A DNA stretch of 21,603 nucleotides from a virus. Of this stretch, positions 4,075 to 15,892 are shown one piece after another. Each line of letters starts with the position of its first letter. The first letter of the stretch is position 1. The notes under the pieces were generated by a model. That model was not told the origin of the DNA and made no database searches. It worked only from the letters and a program-made list of their open reading frames with translations. Both the position numbers and the translations under genes were made by a program. The stretch covers positions 1-21,603 of IMG/VR virus record IMGVR_UViG_3300042375_000102; one strand, given 5' to 3'.

Positions 4075-4308
4075 CTACAGTAGATTCGTGACAACAGCAC
4101 TAATGATACCCGTCACCGCGGCGATCCCCGCAATATACGCCAACGTCACACTCCGCGTCATCGTGCGCTGATCCTCACGCGCATCGACCTCGGCGCTGTG
4201 AACCTCTAGCATCCGCAGCCTGCCATTGAGATCCGCGCGGTACTGCACGACCTCGATGCGGAGAGCTTCCATCGCCCGATACAATCGCTCAACTTCGGCA
4301 TCAGACAT
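4075..4308 (-). CDS. XhlA-like coiled-coil/TM lysis accessory protein (77 aa)
   Basis: The N-terminal 45 residues are charged and heptad-like (EVERLYRAMEALRIEV through RMLEVHSAEVDA). The C-terminus is one membrane span (LAYIAGIAAVTGIISAVV). A coiled coil plus a C-terminal span, placed beside a holin and endolysin, is the layout of hemolysin XhlA-type lysis accessory proteins. ATG at 4308 was chosen because TACAAT sits exactly 6 nt upstream, as for other leaderless genes here. The open frame to 4425 runs into the inverted-repeat region and encodes low-complexity shadow sequence. The gene is 9 bp from the holin, so the three form one lysis operon. Confidence 0.75.
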   Translation of the reverse strand: MSDAEVERLYRAMEALRIEVVQYRADLNGRLRMLEVHSAEVDAREDQRTMTRSVTLAYIAGIAAVTGIISAVVTNLL

Positions 4309-4314
4309 GAGCCT

Positions 4315-4320
4315 ATTGTA
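4315..4320 (-). promoter_or_regulatory. Leaderless -10 element (TACAAT) for the lysis operon
   Basis: On the minus strand TACAAT is followed by exactly 6 nt and then the ATG of the XhlA-like gene, with no Shine-Dalgarno sequence. Four other genes here share this spacing. No clear -35 box is visible. Confidence 0.55.
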
Positions 4321-4343
4321 ATGGACTTCGTGGCAAGGTTCAC

Positions 4344-4880
4344 GTGCTGGCAGCTGGCGATGTAGCGACGGCAGCCGCTTGGAATGTGTTGACGAATGAT
4401 GTGATCGCGTTGGCGGCTGGACCAATTAGTCATCCGAGTGCGACGTATCAATGGACTCGTTGGAATCCAACTAATGTATCTGGAACAGATACCGCACCAT
4501 CGGCGACGGCTTTGGCTTCTTACGCAAACTCAACGTATTTTACGTTGGCAAACTCGGGTGGCACGTTGACGGTCACGCTTCTTGCTGCTGGGTATTATGA
4601 AGTTGCCGTAACGATGGAACTGCTTGCGGCACAGGCGTTCACCGTGTTCCGAGGTACAACTAATTTTGGGGGAACATCTACAAAGTATTACGAGAGCACT
4701 ATGTCGTGTACGGCAGAGCCAACAACAGATAACAACTCCTCGTCTTGTGCAGTATTTTCTGTTCTTGCTACAGCAAACCAGACGCTAACGATCTTGCCAA
4801 CTTTCAATGTTACCGCTGGAGCAGCAGCCGCTAATTACTTTGCAGAAGCAAGCATGTTTATAAAGTATCTCGGAGTCTAA
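4344..4880 (+). CDS. Silent inverted cassette: alternative C-terminal module of the tail fibre/receptor-binding protein
   Basis: This frame is on the strand opposite to all neighbouring late genes. Codons 2-21 coincide with the 58-bp repeat shared with the 4951-5466 gene and encode AAGDVATAAAWNVLTNDVI. The next roughly 155 residues are unrelated in sequence but similarly Ser/Thr/Ala/Gly-rich and beta-prone, ending FIKYLGV as many small receptor-binding heads do. The only in-frame starts are GTG codons such as 4344. It lacks the first seven codons, the leaderless promoter and a good ribosome site, and an in-frame TGA lies at 4308-4310. It is therefore probably not expressed in this orientation. 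Flipping it would give an in-frame protein of about 185 aa. Composition is visibly more AT-rich than the structural genes, suggesting acquisition. Confidence 0.75.
   Translation: MLAAGDVATAAAWNVLTNDVIALAAGPISHPSATYQWTRWNPTNVSGTDTAPSATALASYANSTYFTLANSGGTLTVTLLAAGYYEVAVTMELLAAQAFTVFRGTTNFGGTSTKYYESTMSCTAEPTTDNNSSSCAVFSVLATANQTLTILPTFNVTAGAAAANYFAEASMFIKYLGV
4348..4405 (+). repeat. 58-bp inverted repeat, left arm
   Basis: Perfectly identical over 58 bp to the reverse complement of 5384-5441, with identity ending abruptly on both sides. It lies within coding sequence in the same codon phase in both copies. Confidence 0.95.
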
Positions 4881-4950
4881 TCCCACCCGTCACGCTCGGG
4901 GAGTTGGGGATACGTGTCGAGTCGCAAGCAACCCGGCGGGGGACGCTAGG

Positions 4951-5466
4951 TTAGGCTGGGATTTCGGTGAGGATTATGTGACCAGGAGAGTTTACGCCGT
5001 ACGAGTGGAGTTCTACTGTTTGACCGGCTACTGTTGAAGCGAAGTAGAGCGTATAGGTTGTGGCGCTTGTGGTTGCTGGGGAGTGTATAAACGCATTGTC
5101 CACAGTAAAAACCACATTAGTGCTGGCACCAACGTTTCCCATTTGTTGTCGGGTACTTGGCACAATTTGACTTGCGCCAACGTAGACAATGAGATTCATT
5201 CCAGTAGCGGTTACGCCTGAAGGCTTGTAGCCCTGAACGTGATATTCGACTTTGATTCTTGAAGCGGTCGAAAAAGGTGTGATCGTGGCGGCAAGATTAC
5301 TTGTTGCGTAAGTAACTGTCGAATTGGTGACAGCGGTTGAATACGTTCCCTCAACTACGTTGCTCATGATGCTTTGATGGGCAATCACATCATTCGTCAA
5401 CACATTCCAAGCGGCTGCCGTCGCTACATCGCCAGCTGCCACAGTTCCCGGAGTTACATACGCCAT
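4951..5466 (-). CDS. Tail fibre/receptor-binding protein, currently expressed variant (171 aa)
   Basis: The protein starts MAYVTPGTVAAGDVATAAAW, a short N-terminal segment of the sort that attaches small fibres to the tail tip. From about residue 30 onward it is Thr/Ser/Val-rich and beta-prone, ending GHIILTEIPA. That resembles trimeric jelly-roll or C1q-like receptor-binding heads, but no family can be named. It is the last tail gene before lysis, the usual receptor-binding position. The shared 58-bp repeat covers codons 9-28. The start is set by TAGAAT exactly 6 nt upstream. Receptor binding is inferred from position, size and the alternative-cassette arrangement. Confidence 0.7.
   Translation of the reverse strand: MAYVTPGTVAAGDVATAAAWNVLTNDVIAHQSIMSNVVEGTYSTAVTNSTVTYATSNLAATITPFSTASRIKVEYHVQGYKPSGVTATGMNLIVYVGASQIVPSTRQQMGNVGASTNVVFTVDNAFIHSPATTSATTYTLYFASTVAGQTVELHSYGVNSPGHIILTEIPA
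5384..5441 (-). repeat. 58-bp inverted repeat, right arm
   Basis: Exact reverse complement of 4348-4405. It lies inside the N-terminal coding region of the expressed tail fibre gene. Confidence 0.95.
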
Positions 5467-5472
5467 GAGTCT

Positions 5473-5478
5473 ATTCTA
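5473..5478 (-). promoter_or_regulatory. Leaderless -10 element (TAGAAT) for the tail fibre gene
   Basis: TAGAAT, 6 nt, then ATG on the minus strand. The upstream and downstream bases (GGCAGG before it, AGACTC after it) are identical to those before the tape measure gene. It lies outside the inverted-repeat segment, so it would serve whichever variant is present. Confidence 0.6.
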
Positions 5479-5485
5479 CCTGCCC

Positions 5486-6796
5486 CTAGAGTCCGAATGT
5501 CGACGTGCCAATAATACTAAACGGGTACTCGGCTGCGACTGCCGTGCCACTCGTCACGGTACCACCCGCCCAGACCATCGCAGCCGTGTCCGTTGACGCC
5601 AGCGAGAACGTGACCTTATGCGTCATCGGACGCATCTCGTTTCGGATGCCAATGATCTGCACGTTCTTCGAGATCCGCGTCCCGATCCGATTGGGCTGGT
5701 ACTCCAGCAGGATGATGTCTGCGATCTCCAAGCCGAGAACCTTCGATTGGTCAGCGGTGCCGAGTCCAGCCAGCTCGACCGTCATCGTGTCGAAGCGCAG
5801 GTCTGGCTCGTCATACTTGCCAACTAGGTATTGCGAGAGCGCGAGCGCGTTCGCGTCGGTGTCGATCAGCAGCCCGTTGTAGTCCAGCGAAGTGATGCCG
5901 TACTCACTCTGCGATGCGCTTCCGGCAGCGGTCTGGATTGAGCCACCTAGCCGCGCGATGTTCACCCGGTTATACAAGAGCTCGGTGCCGTACGACACGG
6001 TGATGTCGGTGTACGGGATCGTGGTGCCGCCGGCGTCCGAGAACGTGACGGTGCCGATCGTCGCGCCAGAGTTCCGATTCTTGAACGTCACCGCGTTCGA
6101 CTTCGACATGAAGAGTTGACCAGGCTCAGACGCCTCGATCAGCTGCAAATACCCGAGCGCATCCGTGCCAGCATCTACCACGTCAGCCTGTAGCGTCTGC
6201 GCGCCCGTGTCAATGTTCCGCAATGTTGTCGGCCAGTCGATCTCGGTGCGGTTCAGGATCGCCGCGATACGCGCTCCCGACGTCTGACTCGTTGCCGTGT
6301 GCGCGGATATCTGCTGACCACCGAACGTGATGAATCCATCAGCAGCAACCGCGCCAGCCGTAGACTCGCCGCTGACGTTGTAATCAAGTCCCCAGTCCTC
6401 GATGATCCCGGTGAATTGGACAGCCGTTGACGCGCCCGTGATCGTCGAGATCGTCACGTTCCGGCGCGGCTTGATATCCGGGTAATAGGGCGACGACGTG
6501 TAGAACGGATCGAATGCGCGGTCTTGATTATTGAAGGTAATGTTGGCAACGCCGGTCTGGTAACGATCCAACTCGCGCGACCTGCCGCGCGTGATCGACA
6601 CGGAACGGACGCGAGTCGTCACGTCATAGTTCAGCGTCCCGCCAAAGCGGTAGTCCGTGTTGTCAAAGATGCTCTGCGGATTCGCAGCTATAGCCGCTGG
6701 CGTATTCGTCGCCGTCCCCGATCCCCACAGAAAGAACGGACCACCCTGGCTCGACGTGTCGAAGCCGATCTGGACTAGCAGGCTCGGCGTCGCCAC
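5486..6796 (-). CDS. Minor tail / tail-tip protein (436 aa)
   Basis: The protein directly follows the tape measure gene. Its GTG start abuts the tape measure TAG, with AAGGA just upstream. It begins with a beta-rich domain (VQIGFDT, RVRSVSITRGRSRELDRYQTG, ITFNNQDRAFDP). The RGRS-x-ELD-x-YQTG and N-x-D-R-x-FDP blocks are recurrent in actinophage minor tail proteins of the Dit/Tal type. The C-terminal half (YNRVNIARLGG, LEIADIILLEY, VTFSLAST) matches the usual late part of such proteins. It likely forms the distal tail hub that carries the small fibre. It is the only large tail-tip protein between the tape measure and lysis genes. Confidence 0.75.
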   Translation of the reverse strand: MATPSLLVQIGFDTSSQGGPFFLWGSGTATNTPAAIAANPQSIFDNTDYRFGGTLNYDVTTRVRSVSITRGRSRELDRYQTGVANITFNNQDRAFDPFYTSSPYYPDIKPRRNVTISTITGASTAVQFTGIIEDWGLDYNVSGESTAGAVAADGFITFGGQQISAHTATSQTSGARIAAILNRTEIDWPTTLRNIDTGAQTLQADVVDAGTDALGYLQLIEASEPGQLFMSKSNAVTFKNRNSGATIGTVTFSDAGGTTIPYTDITVSYGTELLYNRVNIARLGGSIQTAAGSASQSEYGITSLDYNGLLIDTDANALALSQYLVGKYDEPDLRFDTMTVELAGLGTADQSKVLGLEIADIILLEYQPNRIGTRISKNVQIIGIRNEMRPMTHKVTFSLASTDTAAMVWAGGTVTSGTAVAAEYPFSIIGTSTFGL

Positions 6797-9163
6797 CTAG
6801 TTCTTCCTTAGGTTGCGCGTCTGCGTTCCACCGTTGGTCGAGACGCCAGCCGAGGTGGCTTGAATCTGCGGACCAGCGAACACTTGCCCGTTGCGCTTCT
6901 CAAACTTCTTGATCGACTCGACGATCGTGCGACCGAGCTCGTCAGGGTTCGTGCCGAGTCCAGCGTTGATCACCAGATTGTAGGTTGCCCCGCCTCCGCC
7001 ACCACCGAGCGCATCCCGCATGATTCCCATCGCCTCACTCGACCCGAGCGGGATCACCGCCTCGCGACCAGCCTCACCAGCCGTGAAGACCTGACGCTTT
7101 AGGATGCCGCCGGCGGCCATCGCAACAGGCTTTGGATGGTCCTCGTCCCACTTCTTCATGATGTTATTGATATCAGTTTGCTCTTCCTTCGTGATGCCGT
7201 CTTTCTTCCGACCATCACGAGCCTTCTTCAACCGAGCAGCACGATCCTCTTTCCATTGATTGAGCGCAGCAGTACGAGCAGCATCCATCGCCGGCGTCGG
7301 CTTGTCAGCCGTGATCGGGAGATTGCCCTTGCCGTACCGATCGATCACGTTCTGGATATCACTCGCCGCAGCCTTGATCGATTCCAACTCCCGACCAAAC
7401 GCGCCAGCAAATGCTGCGCCGAGTTCGCCACCTCGGTCAGCACCAATGATCGCGTCAAGACCCGCCGAGAAAGCCTGCGCGCTAATATTGCCCCGATTGA
7501 ACGACTCAATCAGATTATCGATCGACCGCTGATTCGCAGACTGCGCGATCGCCACGCGCTCTTCAGCAGATGTCGCGTCAACCTCCAACTCGAAATCAGC
7601 AAGATCCTGCTTGGCTTGCGCGAGATCTTCATCAGTAGCGGCAGAATCCCTCACAAGCGTCAGGCGCGCACGCTCGCGCGTAGTCGCTTCAGCCTTCTGC
7701 TGCGCGCGAATCTCGGCAGCACGCTTCGCGTCCGGCGAGGACGTACCTGTGATCGTCGAGAGCATCCCGCCAAGCGATGAACCAAGACCAGCCAGTCCCT
7801 GGCGCGCAGCGTTCACGGCTTCGCGCACGGTCTTCGTGATGACACCAATGAAGACTGGAGCGCCCTTGCGTGCTTCTCGCGTCATCGACCTGAATGCTTC
7901 ACCAATAACGCCACCAATCGAATCGCCAGCAGACATAAACCAGTCTTTGATCGCCTTCGTAGCGATGCCGGGATTCTCGTTCAGCCATTGCGTAATACCG
8001 TCCCACAATCCAGCAATCATCTCTCGACCAACGCCACCCGCCCACTCGTTCAGCGCAACAGGATTGAGCAACGTGACAAATAGTCCGAGGGTATTCTTCG
8101 CGTTCTTACCAGCCTGCGACTTCGCCCCGCCAAAGATCGCATCCATAATGCCAAAGCCAATGGTATTACCAAACTCGTTGGCCTTCTGTTTCATCGCAAT
8201 ATTTAGTGATGTAAAGAACGCGGCGACCTGATCCTTACCAGCCGGGATCAACTTGATATGCAGTCCACTCGTTGGACTCTTCTCAAACTCTGTCTTCGGT
8301 GTCGTCCACCAATCGATGATTGACTGGACCCCGCGCCACGCAGCACCAGCAAAAGTCCCAATAACAAACTGGATCTTTGCCGATAGCGTCGGCTGCTTCG
8401 CAATGTCACGAACAAAACCGAGGAATATCTCCGCACCACGACTGACCGCTGGAATGAATCCGGCGATTAGATCAGCGGCAAGATTGCGGAATGTCTCCTT
8501 GAGAATATTGAGCTGACCCGGTAGCGTCTGACCAGCCGCTTTCGCGCTCCCACCAAACTGCACCTCGAGCTCTTTTAGGATCATCTTCTGGGCGCCCATG
8601 ACGTTGCCAGAATCTACGAGCGCCTTGATCGTGTCCTTCTGCGACGCCGTGAATTGAACGCCAGCACGGGACAAGGCTCCGACACCCTTGACGGGATCGT
8701 TCAGCGCCTTACCAACAAGGATCGCCGAAGAGCTCAGATCCTTCCCCATCGCAACGGACAGATTCGTCATCGCCAGCGTAGCCTGGTCGAAGATATTATT
8801 TCCCTTGCCAGTCTCGTTGCGTATTTTGGTGAACGTCAACAATAAGTTTTGCCCGGATTGGATCGCTTCGTCATCGACGCCACTCAACTTCATCAGGCTT
8901 TCCGACATCGTGGTGATCTGCTTACTCGTGACGTTTGCAGCGCCACCCGTCGACTTCAGCACCGCGCCCGTCTGCGCCAATACCTTCTGCGCACCCATGA
9001 ACTCGTCGACGCCGATCTTCAACGTCGCGACCAAGCCACCAAGCGCAGCTGCGCCGCCGACAATGGCAGCCATCTTGCCGAACTTGCGGAGACCGCTAGT
9101 GCCTTGCGAGAGTCCGCGCGATAGACCGGAGGTATCAACGCCAATCGGAATTACAATAGCCAT
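6797..9163 (-). CDS. Tape measure protein (788 aa)
   Basis: This is the longest gene of the window and follows the tail chaperone region. It begins MAIVIPIGVDTSGLSRGLSQ and has a Gly/Ala-rich hydrophobic stretch at residues 31-50. Long helical, Gln/Lys/Ala-rich segments follow, with interspersed hydrophobic patches. Near the C-terminus is AAGGILKRQVFTAGEAGREA then VIPLG, a signature very common in tape measure proteins. At roughly 0.15 nm per residue, the family rule of thumb, 788 aa implies a tail of about 120 nm. The start is supported by TAGAAT exactly 6 nt ahead of the ATG. Confidence 0.93.
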   Translation of the reverse strand: MAIVIPIGVDTSGLSRGLSQGTSGLRKFGKMAAIVGGAAALGGLVATLKIGVDEFMGAQKVLAQTGAVLKSTGGAANVTSKQITTMSESLMKLSGVDDEAIQSGQNLLLTFTKIRNETGKGNNIFDQATLAMTNLSVAMGKDLSSSAILVGKALNDPVKGVGALSRAGVQFTASQKDTIKALVDSGNVMGAQKMILKELEVQFGGSAKAAGQTLPGQLNILKETFRNLAADLIAGFIPAVSRGAEIFLGFVRDIAKQPTLSAKIQFVIGTFAGAAWRGVQSIIDWWTTPKTEFEKSPTSGLHIKLIPAGKDQVAAFFTSLNIAMKQKANEFGNTIGFGIMDAIFGGAKSQAGKNAKNTLGLFVTLLNPVALNEWAGGVGREMIAGLWDGITQWLNENPGIATKAIKDWFMSAGDSIGGVIGEAFRSMTREARKGAPVFIGVITKTVREAVNAARQGLAGLGSSLGGMLSTITGTSSPDAKRAAEIRAQQKAEATTRERARLTLVRDSAATDEDLAQAKQDLADFELEVDATSAEERVAIAQSANQRSIDNLIESFNRGNISAQAFSAGLDAIIGADRGGELGAAFAGAFGRELESIKAAASDIQNVIDRYGKGNLPITADKPTPAMDAARTAALNQWKEDRAARLKKARDGRKKDGITKEEQTDINNIMKKWDEDHPKPVAMAAGGILKRQVFTAGEAGREAVIPLGSSEAMGIMRDALGGGGGGATYNLVINAGLGTNPDELGRTIVESIKKFEKRNGQVFAGPQIQATSAGVSTNGGTQTRNLRKN

Positions 9164-9169
9164 GAGTCT

Positions 9170-9175
9170 ATTCTA
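9170..9175 (-). promoter_or_regulatory. Leaderless -10 element (TAGAAT) for the tape measure gene
   Basis: TAGAAT, 6 nt, then ATG on the minus strand. The surrounding 20-odd bases are the same as those at the tail fibre gene start. Confidence 0.6.
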
Positions 9176-9186
9176 CCTGCCTATCG

Positions 9187-11852: not shown

Positions 11853-11858
11853 ATTCTA
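11853..11858 (-). promoter_or_regulatory. Leaderless -10 element (TAGAAT) for the connector gene
   Basis: TAGAAT, 6 nt, then ATG on the minus strand. Its TAG is also the stop codon of the last glycosyltransferase. It would restore structural-gene transcription downstream of the inserted sugar cassette. Confidence 0.6.
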
Positions 11859-12398
11859 CAGCGCCGCAGATAGGTTCTCGCCGTGGAAGCGATAGACCCA
11901 CGTCACGAACGGAACGCACACGAAGCGAGCGCCGGCGTCGAGGGCGCGTATCCAGAAATCCCAATCCTCAAATCCGTGCGCCGCGTCCGTCCGCCAGCCG
12001 AGCTCGCTGCATAGTTCGGTGCGGATCAGCGTGGTTGCGGGGATGTAGTTGCCAGCGCGTAGCCTGTCCGCGTCGAAGGGTGCCGAAGGATTCCAACCAC
12101 CTCGCCCAGTCACGTCGCAGTAGGAATACACCACGTCGGCATCAGTCTCCCCGGCGAGCAACTCCAGATGACGCGGCAGCATCAGATCATCATCGGCGAT
12201 CTGCGCGACCCACTCCGCACCAGTCTCGACGGCAGCGGGTAGCATCGCGTTGAGACAAGCAGCTGGTCCGATCCGCTCATAGTCCAAGTGGATGATGTGC
12301 GCGACAGGCTGGAGCGTTTGCGCCATGACTGACGCGACGCACTCGGCTCGAAGATCAACCCGGCTCGGAAGGCTCGGCGTGACGACAACTACGCCCAT
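11856..12398 (-). CDS. Glycosyltransferase, GT-A fold, family 2-like (180 aa)
   Basis: MGVVVVTPSLPSRVDLRAEC is the first strand of a GT2-type enzyme. It is followed by ACLNAMLPAA, a DxD-type motif in QIADDDLMLP, and FEDWDFWIRALDAGARF, which carries the usual ED/W-D-x-W acceptor-site block. ATG at 12398 overlaps the preceding acyltransferase gene by 10 bp. An upstream extension of the frame to 12440 is shadow. It is the last gene of the five-gene sugar cassette. Donor and acceptor cannot be read from the sequence. Confidence 0.85.
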   Translation of the reverse strand: MGVVVVTPSLPSRVDLRAECVASVMAQTLQPVAHIIHLDYERIGPAACLNAMLPAAVETGAEWVAQIADDDLMLPRHLELLAGETDADVVYSYCDVTGRGGWNPSAPFDADRLRAGNYIPATTLIRTELCSELGWRTDAAHGFEDWDFWIRALDAGARFVCVPFVTWVYRFHGENLSAAL

Positions 12399-13036
12399 AA
12401 CCGCCGCGTGCCTGCCTGCCGATCCCTCAACCCAGCCCAACGCTCCCAGACGGACTCGGATAGAACGCTTGCAGAATACTCCGCCGGCAGACTACGATCC
12501 TTGCTGGTGTTTGATCCGAGCAGTCGAGCCGGAGATCCGGCGACCTTTGCAAACGGATCAACATCCTTGACGACGCTGGAGTTCAGACCGACCATTGCCC
12601 TCTCGCCAATGATGATCCACGGATGGGTCACGACGCCCTGCCCGAAGGTTGCCTCGTCATCGATGATCGTGAAGCCGCCAAGGATACTGAAGCTTCCCAT
12701 CGTGACACCGCGTCCAAGTTGCGAATCGTGAGCGATATGCGCGCCAGCCATCAGCAGCGAATCACCACCGACGATCGTTGGGCGCAAGATGCCCTGGTGA
12801 ACCTGCACAAACTCGCGCACGCACGCACCATCGCCAATCGTTACGCCCTCGGCGCGATGCTTGGAATCCAGCGAACAGGGATACGATCCGCGATGCTGCG
12901 CCGGCGCCCCAATCACCGCATACGCGCCGACGTAGACGCGATCACCAATCGTCAACGGTCCCGTCAGGATCGCCGTTTCGGCAATCTCGCAGCCCTCGCC
13001 GATCGTGACTGCTCCGCGTGTCTCGTCAATAATCAT
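12389..13036 (-). CDS. LpxA-like left-handed beta-helix acyltransferase (215 aa)
   Basis: Hexapeptide repeats run from residue 10 to about 155 (VTIGEGCEI, LTIGDRVYVG, VTIGDGACV, and so on). The LpxA-specific features are there: IGAPAQHRGSYPCSL, VREFVQVHQGI and AGAHIAHDSQLG, whose H103 matches the catalytic His of LpxA. LpxA itself acylates UDP-GlcNAc for lipid A and would be out of place with a Gram-positive host. A sugar N- or O-acyltransferase acting on a nucleotide sugar is therefore more likely. The gene overlaps the upstream CapD-like gene by ATGA and the downstream glycosyltransferase by 10 bp. Confidence 0.82.
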   Translation of the reverse strand: MIIDETRGAVTIGEGCEIAETAILTGPLTIGDRVYVGAYAVIGAPAQHRGSYPCSLDSKHRAEGVTIGDGACVREFVQVHQGILRPTIVGGDSLLMAGAHIAHDSQLGRGVTMGSFSILGGFTIIDDEATFGQGVVTHPWIIIGERAMVGLNSSVVKDVDPFAKVAGSPARLLGSNTSKDRSLPAEYSASVLSESVWERWAGLRDRQAGTRRLWA

Positions 13037-13863
13037 GCCGCATCCGGGTCGTGGGGCGATTCGATGCGGACGATATTCGGGACGATGGTCGTATGTAGAG
13101 TCTCGCTGGCAGCGTGCAGAGGCTCATCCATTCGGTCGCCCCGGCGCCGAGGCATACCTACCCGCACGCGATCGGGATAGAGCGCGCGGGCAACCGAGAA
13201 CATATCTCGCGGTGGTCCAGGTGCGACCGCATATCGCCCCGGAACTAGCACCGCCGCCCAGAGCAGTAGTGCTAGAGCCTCGTTGAGCGAAACAAAATAT
13301 CGCTCGCACATTGTGACCGGGATTGAATCGCTGTCTGGCAGCGCCTTCCATATCTCAAACACGTTGCCGGACGACTCGGGTACGTTGTAAAAGCGTGCCA
13401 CGCTGCCGCCGGCGTTGAGCGTGATGCGTTCAGCCACTAGCTTAGTTGCCCCATAAGCGGTTTCCGGGTCGCATGACTTGCATGTGCTGGCGGTGATTAC
13501 GCGCGCGCTGGTCGAGCGGACGACATTCGCGGTGCCAGTAATGTTTATGGTCGCTGCGTCGAGAGGGTCGATCTCTCCGTCTGGCGCGTGCTTGGCACCC
13601 GCGAGGTGAAATACCAGCGTAGGCTTGACCCGCGCCATCACGTCGGCGAGCATGGTGCGGTTCGTCACGTCGCAATCGGCGATATCTGTTCCGATCGTAG
13701 ACACACCACGATCATTGAGTAGCATGGTGATCGCTGATCCGATGCTGCCCTCCGCACCGGTAACAAGGACGCGGTGCCTTTGCAACTCATCCAGCGGCGT
13801 ATCGATCTCTGGTGGATGCTCTGGTCGTCCGAGGATGGCTTCGATATTGAGGGAAGTAGTCAC
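13033..13863 (-). CDS. CapD/FlaA1-like nucleotide-sugar dehydratase/epimerase (276 aa)
   Basis: An extended SDR fold is evident. RVLVTGAEGSIGSAI (residues 31-45) has the glycine-rich NAD(P) motif, VFHLAGAKHAP (84-94) matches the HAAAxKHVP block of FlaA1/CapD proteins, and AYGATKLVAE holds the Y137-x3-K141 catalytic pair. Relatives convert UDP-GlcNAc to 4,6-dehydrated sugars. At 276 aa it is shorter than full CapD and has no membrane region, so it is a soluble type. GTG start overlaps the upstream stop (GTGA). It probably makes the sugar that the neighbouring acyltransferase and glycosyltransferases use; the product is inferred. Confidence 0.82.
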   Translation of the reverse strand: MTTSLNIEAILGRPEHPPEIDTPLDELQRHRVLVTGAEGSIGSAITMLLNDRGVSTIGTDIADCDVTNRTMLADVMARVKPTLVFHLAGAKHAPDGEIDPLDAATINITGTANVVRSTSARVITASTCKSCDPETAYGATKLVAERITLNAGGSVARFYNVPESSGNVFEIWKALPDSDSIPVTMCERYFVSLNEALALLLWAAVLVPGRYAVAPGPPRDMFSVARALYPDRVRVGMPRRRGDRMDEPLHAASETLHTTIVPNIVRIESPHDPDAA

Positions 13864-14561
13864 TCGCCGCCGTCGTCATTCCACGAGTTAGCCAGCCTAG
13901 TCGACAACCGCCAGTCAGCATCGGGTGGGAGTTGGTTGTCTGCCACGTCACGCCAACGCTCGTCAAAGTATCCAGCGTTCGCTGCGTGCGTTCGCGCATT
14001 GTGCGCCTTCAGATTCGGGGATGCTTCGATGGTGCTGGAGTTGTCGTGCTGAACGTGAGCCGATGATCCCGCGAAACCGATGCCGCAGACTTGTGCGCGC
14101 CGCTGCCAGTCCATGTCCTCGCAATACGCTGGGTAGAATCGCTCGCAGAACAAGCCGACCTCGGCAATGGCTCGGCTGCTAATCCACGTACAGCACCACG
14201 GTGGGCGACCGGCTTGCAGAACGTCTACTCCGTCAGTCTCGCCGGCGAAGACCGAGAACGCATCATCCGCGAAGTACGCGTCCGAGTTCAAGAGTAACCA
14301 CCCGTCCGATTCTGGTGTTGCCTTTATCCCTAGATTCCAACTTGTCGCAACGCCGAGGTTCGACGGCATCGTCAATAGATACGTCTTGCCGATGCCTTCC
14401 ATCTGCCCGTCGGTTCGCCAGAGATCGACATCCTCGTCGCCGAGGTTGTCGCCATTGTCGATGATCACTAGGCGCTCGACTTCACCGAGGCTGCCGATCG
14501 CACGCTCCAGCAGGTCGTAGCGGTTCAAGACCGGGATGATGACGGTCGCTAGTCCACTCAT
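13860..14561 (-). CDS. Glycosyltransferase, GT-A fold, family 2-like (233 aa)
   Basis: MSGLATVIIPVLNRYDLLER is the classical GT2 opening. Later come NLGVATSWNLGI, the metal-site-like LLLNSDAYF (residues 89-97) and AYCEDMDWQRRAQVCG (about 145-160). The order matches rhamnosyl/GalNAc-type transferases. ATG overlaps the stop of the upstream glycosyltransferase as ATGA, so the two are translationally coupled. An in-frame ATG at 14609 exists but lies inside the upstream gene and adds a non-homologous segment. Confidence 0.87.
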   Translation of the reverse strand: MSGLATVIIPVLNRYDLLERAIGSLGEVERLVIIDNGDNLGDEDVDLWRTDGQMEGIGKTYLLTMPSNLGVATSWNLGIKATPESDGWLLLNSDAYFADDAFSVFAGETDGVDVLQAGRPPWCCTWISSRAIAEVGLFCERFYPAYCEDMDWQRRAQVCGIGFAGSSAHVQHDNSSTIEASPNLKAHNARTHAANAGYFDERWRDVADNQLPPDADWRLSTRLANSWNDDGGE

Positions 14562-15820
14562 GCCGCGGCTGGGTCCCACGCTGCAAGCTGCTCCAACGCG
14601 GGACGCCAATACTTTGCGTAGACAATATCCGCATCGTAGTCGGCAGCGAAGTCGATCGCCTGCTGGCTCGGTCCGCGCTCGGTAGCGTACGCTTCCTCTA
14701 GCGCGTCAACGATGCGCGGAATCATTGGGGTGGCGAACCACGCGTCCTGGTACGGATCCCAGAGAGGCTGTACCTCGACCGCCCAGCCATCGCCGACGAG
14801 CTCGGTCTGTGCAGTCCAGTCGCTTACGATGACGCGCGTACCGCACGCCTGCGCCTCGACTACGGGCACGCCGAAGCCTTCGCCAGCCGATGTCGCCAGC
14901 AAAACGTCGGCGGCGCTGTAGAGCGACGCTAGCGCCTGCTGTGGCAGGTTCATCCGGTAGAGGTATTGATCGACGAAGCAGACCTGATTCTCAGGGATGC
15001 CGCACCCGCGGATCAGCGCCCGGAGGTCTACGCCAGTTGCGATCGCCGACGCTTCGGTGTGGAGGTACAGGATCGCGTCAGGATGCTTGGCAGCGAAGAT
15101 CGAGAACGCCAGCAGGTTCTCACCGAAGCACTTGCGGACTGGCGTCCTGCCCTTGTTTGCAGAGTTCATCATCACGACGAAGCGATCAGACTTGACGCCC
15201 ATCAGTTCGTGACCCGTGACAAGGGTGCCATCCGCATCAGCGAATGATGGTGTCGGCTTGAAGACCGGCTCGACAGCGTGCGGAACATAGATCGACTCGA
15301 TGCCATCGTCCGCCATCATCCGCTCGGCAAATCGGCTCATCGCGATCGGCTTGACGTTGGGACGCTTCAACCATTGCAGCACCTTGGGCGGTGCTGGCTG
15401 GTGATCGATTGGCGCCCACGCGGCGATCTTCGGGATCTGCTTTATGCCCGGATTCTCTAGCGCCCACACGTCAAACAAGATCACGACCAGGCTGGGGAGT
15501 TCGGTGCCGTGCGCCCAATGCTGCGCGTGCGCGTTCAAGATATCATCGCTATAACCGGAGATCCCGCAGGGATACAGCTTTACCCCACCATTCCAAGTAG
15601 TCTCCGCGCCCTGCAAGCCATAGTTGCACGCGATTGCTACTTCGTGCTGATCGCGCGTTAGGCGCTGAACAACCTGCGCCGTCTGGACGCCGTAGCCTGT
15701 AGCAGAAAATGGAGCGTTCGAGGCCCAAAGCACGCGCTGCCGCGTCACGCCCTCGGCTTGTGGTGGTGCTGGTGGCTTTGTGTGCTTCGCCTGTTGGCGT
15801 CGCGTCGCGCGATTCGACAT
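14558..15820 (-). CDS. Glycosyltransferase, GT-B fold, family 4-like (420 aa)
   Basis: After a basic N-terminus (MSNRATRRQQAKHTK) comes RVLWASNAPFSATGYGVQTA, the N-terminal Rossmann strand of GT4-type enzymes. The C-terminal domain has YSAADVLLATSAGEGFGVPV then VEAQACGTRVI, which contains the E-x7-E motif (E314, E322). I chose ATG 15820 because GGGGGAG lies just upstream and the frame further up runs through the terminator hairpin. It is the first gene of the sugar cassette, directly behind the capsid gene terminator, so its expression depends on read-through or a separate promoter. Confidence 0.88.
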   Translation of the reverse strand: MSNRATRRQQAKHTKPPAPPQAEGVTRQRVLWASNAPFSATGYGVQTAQVVQRLTRDQHEVAIACNYGLQGAETTWNGGVKLYPCGISGYSDDILNAHAQHWAHGTELPSLVVILFDVWALENPGIKQIPKIAAWAPIDHQPAPPKVLQWLKRPNVKPIAMSRFAERMMADDGIESIYVPHAVEPVFKPTPSFADADGTLVTGHELMGVKSDRFVVMMNSANKGRTPVRKCFGENLLAFSIFAAKHPDAILYLHTEASAIATGVDLRALIRGCGIPENQVCFVDQYLYRMNLPQQALASLYSAADVLLATSAGEGFGVPVVEAQACGTRVIVSDWTAQTELVGDGWAVEVQPLWDPYQDAWFATPMIPRIVDALEEAYATERGPSQQAIDFAADYDADIVYAKYWRPALEQLAAWDPAAA

Positions 15821-15832
15821 ACTCCCCCGTCC

Positions 15833-15877
15833 AAAAAAAATAGTGGCTACCCGACAAACGATCTGCCGGGTAGCCAC
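15833..15877 (-). terminator. Rho-independent terminator behind the capsid gene
   Basis: An 11-bp perfect stem (15867-15877 with 15843-15853, GTGGCTACCCG and its complement) surrounds a 13-nt loop. It is followed on the minus strand by TA and eight T residues. It lies 16 bp beyond the capsid stop and ahead of the glycosyltransferase ribosome site. It should cap the abundant head-gene message. Confidence 0.9.
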
Positions 15878-15892
15878 CATTCTACCTATCGA

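Follow-up and report, generated by a model that had tools for sequence, protein, structure and literature searches.

The segment at 4348-5441 of the viral DNA analysed here is, with a probability that we put at about 0.87, a two-state invertible cassette, which would determine the C-terminal head, one of two, that follows the single start of a putative receptor-binding protein. The window, i.e. the whole stretch of 21,603 bp, is an IMG/VR virus fragment whose minus strand carries a siphovirus-like late region, in which the terminase gene is followed by genes for the portal, protease, capsid, sugar modification, tail and tape measure, and then by the tail protein, the fibre, a small gene, the holin and the endolysin. 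Several of these names were given by gene order and by likeness to Pontimonas phage phiPsal1. The parts of the cassette and its fixed surroundings are listed in Table 1.

Table 1. Parts of the candidate switch and its fixed flanks (positions in the window)
Feature	Position	Strand	Remarks
Constant 5' end, outside the cassette	5442-5484	-	Leaderless-type promoter TAGAAT at 5473-5478; ATG at 5466-5464; first codons MAYVTPGT
Arm, expressed side	5381-5441	-	Codes for the shared helix VAAGDVATAAAWNVLTNDVIA; contains a 58-bp perfect inverted match to 4348-4405
Arm, silent side	4348-4408	+	Inverted partner of 5381-5441
Expressed fibre, putative receptor-binding protein, 171 aa	4951-5466	-	ORF with ATG; N-terminal helix and beta-rich head (model)
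Silent alternative head, 178-aa ORF	4344-4880	+	GTG; without promoter and without ATG; in-frame intact counterpart in 8/8 phages
Central element between the convergent ORFs, ~70 bp	4881-4950	none	Non-coding; conserved; both orientations among relatives
Fixed outer flank, silent side	4309-4347	-	Colinear in relatives; TACAAT at 4315-4320 is the leaderless-type promoter of the next gene
Upstream tail protein gene, fixed flank	5486-6796	-	Orientation reference; also used for the tree
Downstream 77-aa gene, fixed flank	4075-4308	-	Orientation reference

The first-pass annotation of this DNA had described two convergent ORFs in the same codon phase that share a perfect 58-bp inverted repeat, and both points were confirmed: 4348-4405 pairs exactly with 5384-5441, the sequences are unrelated beyond the repeat on both sides, and the minus and plus ORFs have equal codon phase within the arms. 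Over their full length, the arms are identical at 60 of 61 positions in opposite orientation. This is by far the longest inverted repeat of the window, the next longest having arms of 32-34 nt with 71-75% complementarity. The predicted product of a flip, a 185-aa in-frame protein made of the constant MAYVTPGTV start and the other head, was also reproduced. Likewise, the promoter is one-sided as had been claimed: TAGAAT stands 6 nt ahead of the fibre ATG and belongs to the minus ORF only, and the plus ORF has neither this promoter nor an ATG, its GTG being preceded at 5 nt by a weak AAGG. The promoter TACAAT on the silent side faces away from the silent ORF. Promoter and start are found on one side only. 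The leader at the fibre start is alike in all 10 loci compared. Moreover, the 36-bp leaders of the fibre (5449-5484) and of the tape measure (9146-9181) are 89% alike, with TAGAAT 6 nt before each ATG; judged by these motifs, both are leaderless-type promoters inside the late operon.

In the proposed mechanism, the inverted arms coding for the shared helix would recombine and flip the 972-bp interior, bringing the silent head in frame behind the fixed promoter, the start codon and the N-terminal helix, while the former expressed head would then be stored without a promoter or a proper start. The flip may be carried out by RecA-type recombination of the host or by the replication and repair recombination of the phage, and the same recombination may also homogenise the arms. 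If the two heads bind different receptors, a flip would change or hedge the host range. Heads would additionally be traded as cassettes bounded by an arm and the central element.

Related IMG/VR contigs were gathered by viral-contig searches with the arm, both ORFs, the upstream tail protein, TerS, the downstream gene and the central element. The complete invertible locus was found at the same genomic place in eight distinct phages (the window, L003, L007, L021, L022, L028, L029 and L039). L004 is the same phage as the window (99.97% identical over 11.8 kb) and L011 and L013 are identical to L029, so that none of the three was counted separately. In the eight phages, the arms measure 46-62 nt, are 94-100% complementary and are spaced 933-1186 nt apart; both convergent ORFs are intact and in phase in every case, and the silent ORF lacks an in-frame start codon in five. 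Since eight distinct phages, recovered from different metagenomes, share this layout with ORFs that are intact and modules that differ, an assembly artefact can be ruled out. The switch is absent from L027, where two full-length genes stand in tandem, both carrying the shared motif and each with a start of its own, and from L024, L037, L025 and the Baikal MAG contig L042, with only one fibre gene each. The central element of L027 lies 3' of the second gene, directly before the fixed downstream flank.

The central element 4881-4950 is strongly conserved, though the heads on both sides of it are unrelated. It is 92-96% conserved in seven phages, and in L022 41 bp of it are conserved at 90%, so that it is usable as a marker of orientation. 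A role as terminator was considered for this element and rejected, as its predicted RNA fold is not significant (z -0.01 and -0.62) and no terminator was called there.

The opposite orientation of the interior, for which a search among related genomes had been recommended, was found among the relatives. Relative to the colinear flanks, the interior stands in one orientation (P) in three phages (the window, L022 and L029) and in the other (Q) in five (L003, L007, L021, L028 and L039). In pairwise DNA comparisons of P with Q phages, every detected central-element match over 66 bp was on the minus strand, whereas both flanks matched on the plus strand. Between L022 and L007, the clearest pair, both flanks match plus/plus (89% and 95%), and L022 11942-12552 aligns in minus orientation with L007 9048-8423 (632 columns, 73%), with the central element, a head and an arm inside this block. 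Thus, an interior block is inverted between colinear flanks, and a module kept silent by one of the two phages is the expressed one of the other. At least one inversion, from P to Q or from Q to P, must have taken place. Both orientations occur in each of two clades with 100/100 support in the tree of the upstream gene, which indicates at least two flips, or else transfers of the locus. P is probably the ancestral orientation, because the central element of L027 stands in P beside the fixed downstream flank.

The suggestion that recombination here is ongoing or recent stands in part. Both orientations are found among relatives; however, near-identical contigs of the same phage all share one orientation (L004 with the window; L011 and L013 with L029). 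A search for the window's phage in the flipped configuration yielded no contig, its silent module being recovered only in L004. For these reasons, inversion in the present-day population is only a prediction. Contig ends near the locus were also considered as a sign of mixed orientation; two end in the arm region and others earlier in the upstream gene, and they were set aside as uninformative.

Heads that are active in one phage have counterparts that are silent in another. The active head of L007 and the silent head of L022 share 70% of amino acids over 171 residues, and the active head of L021 and the silent head of L007 share 72% over 172; dN/dS is ~0.25 for both pairs. The silent head of L022 is more distant from the expressed head of L028 (49%). 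The family of the window's expressed head also occurs in L007, L022 and L028, and modules otherwise differ strongly between phages. No relatives of the silent head were found in cultured phages. One head was observed in opposite slots in L021 (5958-6516) and L007 (9604-9043), between which the central element is not flipped. Some changes of slot must therefore have a cause other than the flip, and the comparison points to a further mode of cassette exchange, with its limit at the central element, by which heads may also move.

The evolution of the arms bears on how the interior might be flipped. A 38-bp arm core shows no difference within the genome in any of the eight phages, whereas between phages it differs at 1.86 positions on average (permutation p = 0.00055); for example, both arms of L028 carry the same four changes relative to the window. 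This identity within each phage includes silent sites, which differ between phages. Synonymous divergence of the arm between phages is 0.18 versus 0.26 for the neighbouring gene, at the 20th percentile of 12-codon windows, which is not significant, and a conserved crossover site in the arms was rejected on this ordinary divergence. On the right-hand side of TGGAATGT, differences between the two arms of one phage do occur (L021 and L022). A conservative invertase exchanges half-sites and requires a conserved site. Arm cores that are equal within each genome, drift between phages and contain no specially conserved site suggest homology-driven recombination rather than a fixed invertase site, and it is rather probable that the flip, if it takes place, is driven by homology without a dedicated invertase.

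Searches for recombination enzymes were extended to the relatives, which jointly cover the genome from terminase to terminase (~32 kb as a summed size), as shown by the overlap of L046 and L064. Profile searches of 38 virus records gave no serine recombinase (PF00239), with control genomes matched, and no tyrosine recombinase (PF00589); three integrase matches in G038 were discarded, as they lie on other contigs of the bacterial MAG and not on its 6.3-kb phage contig L042. No IS110-type enzyme (PF01548) was found in 11 virus records, and no match to RecT (PF03837) in the virus records searched; the Pfam matches obtained for 59 ORFs of the early region included no recombinase. For several early genes, no family was matched. 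The phages encode an Mre11-like exonuclease, and a RuvC-like resolvase was weakly matched (E = 7e-4), so that no recombination protein is firmly identified by these profiles.

The best-surviving alternative keeps the same switch and has it flipped in trans by a site-specific invertase, from the host or from a phage gene that escaped recognition, with the crossover site in the arm. Every phage fibre switch that has been studied well relies on an invertase (PMC12529663), and for one bifidophage locus, which no recombinase flanks, an invertase acting in trans has been proposed (PMC6109161). The early genes without a family match leave room for such an enzyme, and the outer arm boundary falls at the same base in 8/8 phages (TGGCAGC, or GCAGC in L028). 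However, concerted evolution across the whole 38-bp core is not expected from a fixed crossover point, the synonymous sites of the arm are not specially conserved and the searches of the 38 and 11 records yielded no candidate. We regard this alternative as possible but on the unlikely side.

A less probable view, which we consider improbable, is that no flipping occurs within a phage, the present arrangements being due to rare recombination between phages at the arm and the central element, with the silent ORF as a passive reserve or relic. The equal orientation of near-identical contigs, the slot change between L021 and L007 and the strong differences of modules between phages all fit this view. 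It accounts poorly for silent ORFs that are intact and in phase in all eight phages and for a dN/dS of ~0.25 between active and silent heads, nor does it explain why arm cores are matched within each genome, why at least one inversion is needed between P and Q or why both states occur in each clade. Finally, that the plus ORF encodes a further tail protein, expressed separately and sharing a tail-docking helix with the fibre, is very improbable: its GTG and weak AAGG and the two tandem genes of L027 can be cited for it, but the arm DNA is perfect within a phage even at silent sites that differ between phages, the plus ORF lacks the MAYVTPGT start and the promoter, 5/8 phages have no in-frame start, and the central element and the modules flip.

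Returning to the homology-driven cassette, we give about even odds to the fuller proposal that a phage lineage, probably of planktonic actinobacteria, flips its receptor-binding protein by homology without an invertase, the sequence coding for the N-terminal helix serving as substrate, gene conversion keeping the two copies matched and the central element letting heads move between slots and phages.

The model of the window's fibre has a helix at residues 11-31 followed by strands (pLDDT 61), with weak matches to TNF-like lectins and phage tail-fibre domains, those making biological sense. The arm would thus code for the predicted N-terminal helix, and the swapped part would be the beta-rich head. 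The model of the silent head was unusable (pLDDT 38). A small tail-tip receptor-binding protein is the best reading of the expressed fibre, because the gene comes directly after the tape measure and the tail protein and because of the modest fold match. The nearest cultured relative found is Pontimonas phage phiPsal1 (MG835450), and an actinobacterial host is therefore likely. The two phages resemble each other in the major capsid protein (45% over 98%), the tail protein (37%) and the order terminase-portal-capsid-glycosyltransferases-tail, but no inverted repeat of the window's kind was seen in the 31-kb genome of phiPsal1.

A Mom-like DNA-modification gene (559-1485) lies between direct repeats (493-558/1507-1572, 66 nt, 80%; 1476-1522/1614-1660, 47 nt, 79%); the gene was called at full length in L046 but not at this place in L043, L045 and L047. 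Flanked by repeats and present or absent among relatives, it looks like an exchangeable cassette. Between the capsid and the head-completion genes, the block 11856-15880 contains glycosyltransferase, epimerase-like and hexapeptide-transferase genes; it differs in L049, and in L048 and L051 it carries an inserted ORF that appears GIY-YIG nuclease-like by eye. Most of the relatives' contigs L052-L063 end exactly at the TerS start, which suggests a fixed physical genome end there, and L064 reads through this junction.

Invertible fibre switches that have been studied well are those of phages with their own site-specific invertase, whereas this uncultured family has no recognisable recombinase and ~58 bp of coding homology. 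If the proposal is true, any phage could acquire receptor switching through one inverted duplication of a tail gene; such switches would escape searches for invertases and could be counted directly in existing long-read metagenomes. For uncultured bacteria, the locus would also provide receptor-binding heads in natural, interchangeable pairs.

Mu and P1 invert at short sites. Each has its own serine invertase, and the segment flipped is 3-4.2 kb long, whereas the window locus spans ~1.1 kb with coding arms of 46-62 bp among its relatives, and no such enzyme was found; the serine invertase encoded with the segment, by which the Gin/Cin/Hin group is recognised, was thus not found in the 38 virus records. 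Inversion of the Mu G segment (Gin) and the P1 C segment (Cin) alters host adsorption, and these loci share with ours an invertible segment, two convergent alternative fibre genes and a constant start outside. In Mu and P1, one orientation is expressed per state (PMC12529663); the window locus would produce one small protein per state. The earlier likening to Mu and P1 is therefore borne out by the layout and by both orientations, but not by an invertase in the 38 related virus records. The general marks of an invertible fibre or receptor-binding protein switch, namely inverted repeats, facing alternative C-termini, a constant start outside and both orientations among relatives, were all found.

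Among actinobacterial phages, the Rin shufflon of Bifidobacterium prophages uses a tyrosine recombinase and 11-bp sites, and a second inversion, in tRNA-Met bifidophages, has 8-bp sites and no flanking recombinase; in both, as proposed here, the C-termini of receptor-binding proteins are swapped behind a constant N-terminus (PMC6109161). Unlike Rin, the window locus has only two heads, long concertedly evolving arms and a central element that is conserved; it shows neither an integrase nor a prophage signature, and the tyrosine recombinase that would stand beside a Rin-type locus was not found in the 38 virus records. Inverting Type I hsdS loci likewise combine convergent or duplicated variable genes, inverted coding repeats and exchange of specificity domains, and a recombinase has not been shown for all of them (PMC7394358); they determine the specificity of bacterial restriction-modification, whereas the window locus encodes a virion protein. 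Lacking the recombinase that marks those systems, the window locus appears to be an invertase-less form of the Mu/P1/Rin kind of switch, for which the closest partial precedents are the second of the bifidophage inversions, where no recombinase flanks the locus (PMC6109161), and the inverting hsdS loci (PMC7394358).
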